Positions 20,653 to 24,611 of a DNA stretch of 64,000 nucleotides are shown here, in pieces. Within the stretch, counting starts at the first letter, position 1; the number at the start of each line of letters is the position of its first letter. Both the position numbers and the translations under genes were made by a program. The notes below the pieces were generated by a model. That model was not told the DNA's origin. It saw only the letters and a program-made list of their open reading frames with translations, and searched no databases. The stretch is from an uncultured Alkaliphilus sp. (GTDB lineage: Bacteria > Bacillota > Clostridia > Peptostreptococcales > Natronincolaceae): the NCBI GenBank assembly GCA_938074565.1, contig CALJEQ010000030.1, positions 1-64,000 of the forward strand, read 5' to 3'.

Positions 20653-23600
20653 ATGGATAAACACATTGAGATAATAGAAAAATTAGCTAAAAAATGGACA
20701 AGTTTTTCTGAAGTGCTTTTTGAGAAAAAAACAAAAGAAGAAATTTTAAATTATTTATATAATGAATTTAAAGCTACGGAAGATCCTATATTCGTATACC
20801 TATATTTAGAATATGTTTACGAATATGATGTAAAATTAAAAGATACAGAACTAAAGGAATTTGTTCTTTACTTTTTAAACTATGACAAGACTTCACGAGA
20901 CATTTTTATATATATAGATGAAAATAAAGAATTAATAGAACTATTTAAAGAAGATAGTACTTTAAAACACTTTTCCCATGCTCTAATTACCTACTATGAA
21001 AATTTAAAATTTGATTCATTCTACGACTATGAAATATGTATTGAAGTACTATGTAAATTTTATGGTCATTTTAAAGATTGTTTTAAAAATCATATGTTTA
21101 ATGAGTATGAAGAAACTTATTTGCAAACACTGTACCGTTGTATTTCAAATTCAGGTGAGGATGATTATGGCTATGCATACAAAGGCTTAAAAAAGGTTAA
21201 GGAGTATATAAGTTGTTTAAGTGAAGATCTGGTGATAAAACTATTATGGAAATTTGAGCGTAATACTTTGTATAATAATATAACTGTGAAACAAGTACAA
21301 GCTATTGTTAGTGGTTTTTATTGGGAATTTGAGAAATATAGAATAATGAAGTATTTTTTTGTTGATAGGCGAATTCTAGAAGAAGATATAACAGAATCAA
21401 TAGGTTTTGAATTGCGGAAAGTTTGTGATACCAATCAATATAATATTATAAAGATAGAAAAAAATAATAAGTATGAGAAACAAATAAATAAAGAGTATGA
21501 GCTATTAAGAATTAAACATAGGGTAGAGGAAGAAAATCAATCCATCAAGGCTATCTTAGTATATCAAAAAGATTATTCATCCACGTATAAAGTTATAAAA
21601 GAGAAAAGTGGAGTTGTAACAGATATACTAGAAATACATCAATTTTTTTCGGAAAAAGGAGAAATAAAAGTTAAAATTAACAAAACTATTAATTATCCTT
21701 TTTTAGATTATTATGCTCTTTCTGACACAAGCGAAGTATACAAGACGAATAGAGAAGATATTGTTAATTATATAAAAGTGAAATTAAATGAATTAAACAT
21801 AAACGTTGATGGGATAGATGATATAAATGATGATATAGAAAATGATTCAAAAGATGTAGAAGAATTTCATCAAGAAAATGAAGAAGAATTTCAGTTAGTC
21901 TATTTATGGTTAGGAAATTATAAAGGACTGTTTAAAGAGGGTGAAGAGTTTAATTTCACTAGTCAATATGAATTTAGGATTATAAACAAAGTATTAGACT
22001 ATAAAGAAATTAATACGAATTATCCCAATAACTTTTTCTATGTTAAAGACAAAGAATATTCAAAATTAAGAAACATAACTGCTGTTGTGGGTAAAAATGG
22101 TTCTGGTAAAACTTCATTATTAAGATTTATAATGGAAAATTTTAACTACATTAATATAAATGACGAAAATAATAGATTTGCAGTAATATTTAAGAAGAAT
22201 GATGAGTTTCATTTGTTTAGAGTGGGTATTGATGAAGTTGAAATAAGAAAAGATAAAATAATTGACTGGACAAACTTATTAGAAGAAAAAGAACAAAAAC
22301 ATCCTTTTAAAGAAAAACTTAATATAATACCATATTTAAGAGACGATACCCATATAGTATATTTCTCAAATATTTTTGATTTTAGTAAGACAAATAAAGT
22401 AAATAATGTTTTTGACCCAGAGAATGTATATATAGATATTTCAAGTCAAACTATTTTCTATGATGACTACAATAAAGATGATATAAATCACTTAAAAAGT
22501 AGCGAAATAGCAAGGCAAATCAACTTTCTTTATTCAGAATATAAAGACTTAGTACTTGAAAATAAAAAAATAGACTTGTATCTTTATTTAACAGATCCTT
22601 TCAAAGAATTTTATAAAGAATCTGATGTTAAACTGTATAATGAAATAGACAGGTTTATAGAAAAAATAAAGGATAGATACAAAACTGATAATATTTTAGA
22701 GGTAACATTATATATCATTAAGTTAACACTATTAGAATGTGCAGAAATATTTAGCAGTCAAGATAAAGGAGATTATTTAGGAGAGTTTTTAGAGTTACTT
22801 AATGAAATGGTAAATATAGAAGAAACATCATTAATAAAATACATAACTTTATCTTTTAGAATGATTGGTAGTAAAATTACAAAAAGAAATGGTAGAACTA
22901 AAAAAACTGATTTATACAAAGAAAATTCTATTATTATTCAGAAAAAAACTGTAGATATTGTAGAGTATGGAAAACAGTTACCGCACCGTAAAAATTTAAT
23001 ATTATTATTTCAAAAAAATATTAATAAACTTGATATAAATATTGAAAATGCACTTAAAATTCCTATTAATAATAGAAGTTTTGCTTTTAATAAGGGTATG
23101 ATAAAAGAATATCAACAATCCAATTTTACCACTAAAATAATTGACTTTGGGTTATCAGAGCTTTCATCAGGGCAACGGGCAATGTTATTACAGTATTCTA
23201 AGTTTTACTGGTTATTTAATAGAGATGACAAGGCGAGTAAGTTGTTTTTAGACTATACAGTACCTAAATTAAAGAAAAACTTGATTGTTTTAATAGATGA
23301 AGGTGAAGTGTTGTTTCATCCAGAATGGCAACGGCAATACCTTTATAATATGATCTATTTCATAGAAAGACTTACTAAAAATAATGAACAGATAAAAAAT
23401 ATACAAATTATTCTTACTTCAAACTCACCCTTCATTTTATCTGATTTACCAAAAGATAATGTAATATTAATGGCGTTTAAAGATGAAAAATGCCAGAGAT
23501 GTACTAATGAAGGAGACAAGGAAAAAACATTTGGTTCTAATATACATACTCTGTTTGCAAATAGCTTTTTTCTAGATGAGAAAGGGGTTATGGGAGAGTT

Positions 23601-23853
23601 TGCTAAAGATAAAATTAGTAAGGTTATTAAAGCCTTGAACGAGAAAAAACTAGGGGGCTTTACGGAAAGAGAACTCCTTTATATTATCGAAGCTATAGGA
23701 GAACCAATGATAAGAACTAAACTAGAAGAGATGCTTTTGTTATGTGATTTCAACCACAATAAAGAGAAACAAGTTGAAGACATTGACAAAGAAATTAAAA
23801 GATTACAAAAGGAAAAAGAAAACCTCTTAAATAGAAAAAACGGAAATGATTAA
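20653..23853 (+). CDS. Large stand-alone AAA/ABC-type ATPase, defence-like
   Basis: A 1066-residue protein. Residues 1-420 are a mainly helical region I do not recognise. An ATPase core begins near FQLVYLWLGNYKG. Walker A is G480-KNGSG-K486-T487; an ABC-like signature SELSSGQ is at 835-841; Walker B is LIVLIDE with D882-E883. The position that is usually His in TSHSPF is N924 (TSNSPF). After it, the GSNIHTLFANSFFLDEKG stretch and a final coiled coil (about 1035-1060) follow. Such OLD/Septu/retron-type ATPases usually act in phage defence with a nuclease partner, but none is encoded beside it. AT-rich; AGGGGGAG precedes the ATG. Confidence 0.8.
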   Translation: MDKHIEIIEKLAKKWTSFSEVLFEKKTKEEILNYLYNEFKATEDPIFVYLYLEYVYEYDVKLKDTELKEFVLYFLNYDKTSRDIFIYIDENKELIELFKEDSTLKHFSHALITYYENLKFDSFYDYEICIEVLCKFYGHFKDCFKNHMFNEYEETYLQTLYRCISNSGEDDYGYAYKGLKKVKEYISCLSEDLVIKLLWKFERNTLYNNITVKQVQAIVSGFYWEFEKYRIMKYFFVDRRILEEDITESIGFELRKVCDTNQYNIIKIEKNNKYEKQINKEYELLRIKHRVEEENQSIKAILVYQKDYSSTYKVIKEKSGVVTDILEIHQFFSEKGEIKVKINKTINYPFLDYYALSDTSEVYKTNREDIVNYIKVKLNELNINVDGIDDINDDIENDSKDVEEFHQENEEEFQLVYLWLGNYKGLFKEGEEFNFTSQYEFRIINKVLDYKEINTNYPNNFFYVKDKEYSKLRNITAVVGKNGSGKTSLLRFIMENFNYININDENNRFAVIFKKNDEFHLFRVGIDEVEIRKDKIIDWTNLLEEKEQKHPFKEKLNIIPYLRDDTHIVYFSNIFDFSKTNKVNNVFDPENVYIDISSQTIFYDDYNKDDINHLKSSEIARQINFLYSEYKDLVLENKKIDLYLYLTDPFKEFYKESDVKLYNEIDRFIEKIKDRYKTDNILEVTLYIIKLTLLECAEIFSSQDKGDYLGEFLELLNEMVNIEETSLIKYITLSFRMIGSKITKRNGRTKKTDLYKENSIIIQKKTVDIVEYGKQLPHRKNLILLFQKNINKLDINIENALKIPINNRSFAFNKGMIKEYQQSNFTTKIIDFGLSELSSGQRAMLLQYSKFYWLFNRDDKASKLFLDYTVPKLKKNLIVLIDEGEVLFHPEWQRQYLYNMIYFIERLTKNNEQIKNIQIILTSNSPFILSDLPKDNVILMAFKDEKCQRCTNEGDKEKTFGSNIHTLFANSFFLDEKGVMGEFAKDKISKVIKALNEKKLGGFTERELLYIIEAIGEPMIRTKLEEMLLLCDFNHNKEKQVEDIDKEIKRLQKEKENLLNRKNGND

Positions 23854-23870
23854 AATATTTGAGAAAATAT

Positions 23871-23920
23871 AAAAACACTCCCCACGGGAGTGCATAAGTA
23901 AAGGTGGCTCAAGAGCCACC
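23871..23920 (-). terminator. Double hairpin terminator (minus strand)
   Basis: Two hairpins follow the minus-strand gene: GGTGGCT/AGCCACC (23903-23920) and CACTCCC/GGGAGTG (23876-23892). On the minus strand the latter is followed by TTTTTATATTTT. They may also stop the convergent ATPase transcript. Confidence 0.7.
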
Positions 23921-23931
23921 AAATTCATTCA

Positions 23932-24213
23932 TTATTCACTCATTACTTCAACTTTTCCACCGGCTTGTTGAATTGTGTTAAATATACCTGCTAAATTACC
24001 TTTGTTACCACCTAAAATGGGTAATCTTATAATTAAACAGATGCCACTTGGAGAAGTAACTTCAATTAAGTTTAATAAATTAATTACAGCACCAGCAGGA
24101 ATAAATATACGAAGTATTGTGCCAGGTAGTTGAGGACATGGTGTTGGTGTTGGGGTAGGTGTTGGCTTCTTACAACCAGTTGTAATTGGGGCGTTTCTAG
24201 GAACTAGTGTCAT
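23932..24213 (-). CDS. Small sigma-K-controlled protein, paralogue 1 (probable spore coat)
   Basis: A 93-residue protein I cannot assign to a named family. It has a short N-terminus, a TPTPTPTP linker, then a hydrophobic core (PQLPGT...IPAGAVINLLNLIE, TSPSGICLI.RLP.LGG) and a tail NTIQQAGGKVEVMSE. About 38 of 44 core residues match the neighbouring paralogue at 24318-24554. Cys14 and Cys26 flank the linker. GGAGGG precedes the ATG. A perfect sigma-K promoter lies upstream, so expression late in the mother cell and a coat location are inferred. Confidence 0.75.
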   Translation of the reverse strand: MTLVPRNAPITTGCKKPTPTPTPTPCPQLPGTILRIFIPAGAVINLLNLIEVTSPSGICLIIRLPILGGNKGNLAGIFNTIQQAGGKVEVMSE

Positions 24214-24240
24214 TTCATTTCCCTCCTTTCCTTTGCACTA

Positions 24241-24267
24241 TATACTATGCTAATATTTCTAAAGGGT
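24241..24267 (-). promoter_or_regulatory. Sigma-K promoter of paralogue 1
   Basis: On the minus strand, AC is followed after exactly 16 bases by CATAGTATA (24249-24241), a full match to the sigma-K consensus AC-N16/17-CATAnnnTA, 28 bases before the ATG. Confidence 0.68.
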
Positions 24268-24270
24268 GAA

Positions 24271-24315
24271 AAAAAGAAACCAAGATTTAAAAAAATATTA
24301 AATCTTGGTTTCTTT
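24271..24315 (-). terminator. Terminator of paralogue 2
   Basis: A 16-bp stem, perfect, starts three bases past the minus-strand stop and ends in TTTT on that strand. Confidence 0.85.
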
Positions 24316-24317
24316 AG

Positions 24318-24554
24318 TTATTCTGTTACAAATTCAATGCTTCCGCCGGCTTGTGAAATTAAATTAGTTATACTAGATAAGTTTAATGTACCTCCCAACG
24401 CAGGCAATCTTACAATTAAGCATATTCCACTGGGAGATGTAATTTCAATAAGATTTAATAGGTTAATTACAGCCCCTGCTGGAATGGAAATCCTAATCAG
24501 AGTACCTGGTAGTTGAGGACAAGCATCTTTCTTAACTGTAGTTCCATTGGACAT
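24318..24554 (-). CDS. Small sigma-K-controlled protein, paralogue 2 (probable spore coat)
   Basis: A 78-residue paralogue of the gene at 23932-24213, with the same core (CPQLPGT, IPAGAVINLLNLIE, TSPSGICLI, RLPALGG) and tail SQAGGSIEFVTE, but no TPTPTP linker; its N-terminus is MSNGTTVKKDA. The frame is open further upstream, but ATG 24554 has GGAGGTGG at good spacing, and it starts with its own sigma-K promoter. Both genes are transcribed separately (each has a promoter and terminator). Function is unknown; a structural spore protein is inferred. Confidence 0.75.
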   Translation of the reverse strand: MSNGTTVKKDACPQLPGTLIRISIPAGAVINLLNLIEITSPSGICLIVRLPALGGTLNLSSITNLISQAGGSIEFVTE

Positions 24555-24584
24555 AGTATTGCCACCTCCATTTCTTTTCCTATT

Positions 24585-24611
24585 TATCTTATGTATAAAA
24601 ACAAAAAAGGT
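24585..24611 (-). promoter_or_regulatory. Sigma-K promoter of paralogue 2
   Basis: On the minus strand AC is followed after exactly 16 bases by CATAAGATA (24593-24585), again a full CATAnnnTA match, 31 bases before the ATG at 24554. Confidence 0.68.

Follow-up and report, generated by a model that had tools for sequence, protein, structure and literature searches.

The two small genes on the minus strand of the 64,000-nucleotide stretch of DNA analysed here (the window), which comes from an uncultured Alkaliphilus sp., belong to a protein family that, judged by the sequence libraries searched, is unnamed so far and has no named-family match. We consider it probable that its members are small structural components of the spore envelope that depend on sigma-K for their expression and associate with themselves, each built from a variable tail, a conserved, beta-rich core and a pair of co-varying cysteines.

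The sequence-only reading of the window had described the genes as paralogues, one of them with a TPTPTPTP linker, that have about 38 of 44 core residues in common. Both open reading frames are present (Table 1), and between CPQLPGT and LGG their cores differ at 6 of 44 positions, leaving 38 identical. The ribosome-binding sites and separate terminators attributed to them were likewise found for both genes, and the hairpins could be located. The start of gene 2 was placed at the ATG at position 24554, which has GGAGG in front of it, and not at the TTG that opens the longest reading frame; the N-termini read MTLVPRN for gene 1 and MSNGTTV for gene 2. Divergence from the Alkaliphilus transvaalensis orthologues is biased toward third codon positions (differences at positions 1/2/3 of 18/10/44 for gene 1 and 15/5/45 for gene 2), and both genes are therefore regarded as truly coding. 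Searching the genome from which the window derives with the gene 1 protein returned these two genes and nothing further at E < 0.7. On the plus strand, convergent with gene 1, lies an open reading frame of 1066 amino acids (20653-23853) that contains GKNGSGKTSLL, which we take to be a Walker-type motif, the product presumably being an AAA/SMC-like ATPase.

Table 1. Positions of the gene pair and its associated signals, numbered along the window.
Feature	Position	Strand	Description
Gene 1 (P0001)	23932..24213	minus	93 aa; N-terminal tail with TPTPTPTP linker, then conserved core CPQLPGT...GICLI; open reading frame and homologues
Gene 2 (P0002)	24318..24554	minus	78 aa; short tail, core as in gene 1
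Sigma-K-like promoter, gene 1	24241..24267	minus	AC-N16-CATAGTATA; ends 27 nt upstream of ATG
Sigma-K-like promoter, gene 2	24585..24611	minus	AC-N16-CATAAGATA; ends 30 nt upstream of ATG
Ribosome-binding site region, gene 1	24217..24231 (boundaries approximate)	minus	includes GGAGG
Two terminator-like hairpins downstream of gene 1	23875..23920 (23920-23903 and 23893-23875)	minus	T-rich tails
Long hairpin downstream of gene 2	24273..24315 (T-rich tail; hairpin also delimited as 24255-24333)		T run on minus strand; also terminator-like on plus strand

A scan of genome contigs with the gene 1 protein recovered 25 loci, close relatives only, from Alkaliphilus, Natronincola, Thermohalobacter, Acetivibrio, Pseudobacteroides, Heliobacterium, Desulforamulus, Desulfotomaculum, Desulfosporosinus, uncultured clostridia and one contig labelled Calditrichales. 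Given such close relatives in many other genomes, the gene pair is no local peculiarity but part of a family. Profile searches placed this family in 19 of 398 genomes of the phylum (about 5%), and a broader profile (A2) returned those 19 genomes again together with three marginal matches (E 0.006 to 0.01), which were left out of the membership; the family is thus sharply bounded. From 76 loci, 100 open reading frames matching the profile were condensed to 67 non-identical proteins, and 61 members, each at least 64 amino acids long, entered the alignment and tree.

Full-length members measure about 64 to 148 residues; a genome has one, two or three of them, in some cases arranged in tandem. Their tails vary widely, from Thr-Pro repeats to His-rich and Asp/Arg-rich stretches, with a Tyr-rich C-terminal tail in one group; a subgroup of three loci (L060, L061, L062) combines such a Tyr-rich C-terminal tail (NYDYLNYYQPYYY) with the loss of both otherwise conserved cysteines. 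Broken or truncated copies are frequent beside intact ones, carrying stops or frameshift-like splits (e.g., L068, L072, L073, L049, L040), which suggests birth and death of copies. Multiple, decaying copies and low-complexity tails are common for spore surface proteins.

That the pair matches no familiar family, as the sequence-only reading had it, agrees with the library searches: Pfam and NCBIfam returned no family match for the gene pair or for 22 members, only scattered matches of single members, and the PDB, searched by sequence, gave nothing convincing. The best PDB matches (E 0.07 with the single protein, 0.0091 with the profile) both fall on one 22-residue stretch of an exonuclease and were discarded as chance. 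No family match was detected in the plasmids and phages searched, and none of 48 pattern matches in viral contigs was confirmed as belonging to the family. The core motifs PAGAVINL, INLLNLIE, SPSGICLI, CPQLPGT, IPAGAVIN, SPSGVCLI and SPGGICLI were absent from the literature searched, which lay mostly outside subscription journals and preprint servers, and the available portion of a Moorella spore proteome study (PMC8745062) offered nothing linkable to the family; publications on appendages and on the spore proteins of carriers pointed to F-ENA and to C. difficile.

The sequence-only reading had further placed a perfect sigma-K promoter before each gene. Upstream of both starts there is indeed an AC at -35 and a CATAnnnT at -10, as expected of a sigma-K regulon gene (about 16-17 nt between the two elements), and the full pattern AC-N16-CATAnnnTA precedes both genes; but an exact match is uninformative alone, as this pattern occurs four times in the 64-kb window against 3.57 expected (not significant), so that the evidence has to be positional and comparative. 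We therefore turn to the upstream regions of the whole family, where a strict pattern set in advance (AC-N16/17-CATAnnnTA, no more than 130 nt upstream) was present for 22 of 67 members. With 300 dinucleotide shuffles the number averaged 0.44 and never exceeded 2, and a sigma-E pattern was found for none of the 67. Restricting the count to the 62 members of at least 60 amino acids with at least 60 nt upstream, 20 carry the strict pattern, against 2 of 144 neighbouring control genes. Many members have CATAnnATG for CATAnnnTA, and a relaxed pattern devised afterwards for this reason, and hence fitted on the very sequences counted, is present in 45 of the 62; the corresponding figures are 7 of the 144 neighbouring genes and, for shuffled sequences, 2.2 on average and 7 at most. 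Among members from the phylum sample that lie outside the window's own taxonomic family, 11 of 21 carry the relaxed pattern. Start codons of members were picked by a simple ribosome-site rule, and some of the 17 members (of 62) that lack even the relaxed promoter may do so because these starts are heuristic or the copies broken.

In the clostridial consensus, as given in work on the C. difficile sigma-K regulon (PMC3789822), sigma-E and sigma-K promoters are alike at -10 and differ at -35, where the former has ATA and the latter AC; the family promoters have AC. The comparative support for the proposed sigma-K control is accordingly strong, and on these promoter sequences a late mother-cell timing of transcription appears well supported.

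The carriers also fit with a role in sporulation. Homologues in non-spore-formers, which would speak against a spore protein, did not turn up in the genomes searched: every carrier among the 398 phylum genomes and among 98 relatives possesses the sporulation gene spoIVA, and judged by this gene the family is restricted to spore formers in the genomes examined. In the phylum sample the association is a weak one (19 of 19 carriers, background 340 of 398 genomes; hypergeometric P 0.046), and it is also seen among the relatives (11 of 11 carriers, background 44 of 98; P 7e-5), with the caveat that the carriers are related to one another and not phylogenetically independent, so that both P values overstate the independence. 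The contig labelled Calditrichales bacterium MX18-03 (L010) belongs to a genome that has spoIVA (E 5e-122), and for this reason the contig has probably been mislabelled, or its bin is a mixture.

To examine the genomic context, 97 flanking open reading frames (up to two per side at the 25 loci) were scanned against Pfam and NCBIfam. The family genes are monocistronic, and no conserved neighbour was apparent, no family being represented in more than 3 of the 97; SpoVR, encountered in 2 of the 97, was not regarded as informative. This bears on the suggestion that the proteins are non-structural accessories of the late mother cell or spore, acting in maturation, germination or regulation. Such a role would be compatible with sigma-K control, which according to PMC3789822 extends to germination genes, sleC among them, and a compact, strongly conserved core could bind a partner; yet a conserved gene neighbour is absent, and a surface structure accords better with low-complexity tails that change fast, a copy number that varies and the occurrence of broken copies, so that we regard an accessory function as quite unlikely. 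Precursors of RiPPs or bacteriocins would likewise be small, tandem and equipped with cysteines, but here the conservation is reversed, the start being variable and the C-terminal core conserved, and the 97 flanking open reading frames show no recurrent gene family for modification or export, which makes this origin highly improbable.

Three observations suggest that the core itself, about 65 residues long, is compact and beta-rich: IPAGAVINLLNLIE and SPSGICLI are strictly conserved, strand-like stretches alternate, and structure models of low confidence show four strands, a helix and a strand. These two AlphaFold models, each computed from a 29-row alignment, reached a mean pLDDT of 56.2 and 55.8 and a pTM of 0.30 and 0.32; they are unreliable, and neither the fold nor the assembly draws support from them. 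Of two cysteines, one directly before PQLPG and one in GIC, both are present in 55 of the 61 parsed members, neither in 4, and that of GIC alone in 2, the start of one of these being uncertain (parsing failed for one additional member). Of the four members with neither cysteine, three are near-identical, so that the joint losses amount to about two independent events. The co-occurrence of the two residues fits a disulfide pair, either within or between subunits. No signal peptide or membrane helix was apparent on inspection by eye.

Taken together, the sigma-K timing, the lack of an apparent signal peptide, the low-complexity tails and the absence of conserved neighbours make a structural role in the coat, crust or exosporium the most likely one, and the confinement, in the genomes examined, to spore formers of the clostridial kind, along with the sigma-K-like switch, indicates that the products are probably building blocks of the outer shell of the spore. 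It is reasonable to suppose that they assemble by themselves in the coat or exosporium. We suggest the following scenario: the paralogous genes 1 and 2 would each be transcribed from a late mother-cell (sigma-K) promoter of their own, with their products made in the mother-cell cytoplasm and then deposited on the forespore surface; subunits would pack through the beta-rich core of some 65 residues, disulfides between the cysteines just before the core and in the GIC strand could hold them in place, and the variable tail, often rich in Pro, His, Asp/Arg or Tyr, may set species-specific surface or partner contacts.

Among known spore proteins, several offer points of comparison. Small proteins of the coat and exosporium that clostridia make under sigma-K control include the cysteine-rich CdeC type, which resembles the family in this control, in small size, cysteine content and occurrence in spore formers, but shows no sequence similarity to it in the libraries searched, the family core being a different and strongly conserved one. 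The subunits of the S/L-ENA spore appendages are defined by the domain DUF3992; they have in common with the family the tandem paralogues, the cysteines in tail and core and the spore specificity, whereas no Pfam model was matched at a meaningful E-value by the 22 members scanned, and DUF3992 was absent from the scans of these and of the gene pair. A preprint (PMC11952670) describes S-ENA and F-ENA subunits, the latter being DUF4183 (PF13799) proteins of about 96 amino acids that occur in clostridia and carry an N-terminal hook, with a hook motif (M-P-small-small-polar-P-aromatic) derived from one F-ENA group. The family is similar to these in its small size, in the short N-terminal segment followed by a beta-rich core and in its presence in Clostridia, and differs in having no PF13799/DUF4183 match or profile similarity; no DUF4183 gene was found in the window's genome, and neither MTLVPRN nor MSNGTTV conforms to the hook motif, which reflects that one group. 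Identity with F-ENA was consequently rejected by sequence, although by analogy the family may work like ENA subunits without belonging to F-ENA.

Polymerization into ENA-like appendages, in which the tail would serve as the N-terminal connector, the core would stack, cysteines would bond the subunits and paralogues would be mixed as in Ena1A/Ena1B, therefore has to be weighed. It would account for the conserved core behind a variable N-terminal tail, the cysteines, the tandem paralogues, the size class of F-ENA (96 aa) and the beta-rich prediction, itself of low confidence. However, besides the missing DUF4183 match, hhalign against DUF4183 sequences of relatives gave a probability of 0.3%, an anchor or tip protein does not recur among the 97 flanking open reading frames, and the core is just some 65 residues long with one predicted helix in models that are unreliable; we consider this scenario unlikely. 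A related proposal, also unlikely in our view, is that the proteins are subunits of an undescribed kind of clostridial spore fibre or surface lattice, in which the core, some 65 residues long and related neither to DUF3992 nor to DUF4183, would polymerize by way of a cysteine-bearing N-terminal connector, the two paralogues serving as mixed subunits.

The outer layers of clostridial spores are unlike those of Bacillus, and many proteins there have no known family. As probable structural proteins of the spore envelope, members of this sharply bounded and recognisable family, which has a testable regulator and occurs in Alkaliphilus, Natronincola, Heliobacterium, Desulfotomaculum-type bacteria, relatives of Acetivibrio and others, could give access to the way spore surfaces are assembled in species other than the models, and their genes could serve as a genomic marker for late mother-cell gene expression.

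In the window's genome, sigK itself is split: its N-terminal half (C5:104682-105017, within L097, C5:103500-107500) and C-terminal half (C5:148843-149202, within L098, C5:146500-150500) lie in the same orientation on contig C5, outside the window and separated by about 44 kb, and an open reading frame for a large serine recombinase of 531 amino acids is located directly behind the first half. The intervening stretch of about 44 kb is a skin-like element, of the kind described in B. subtilis and C. difficile (see also PMC5025042).
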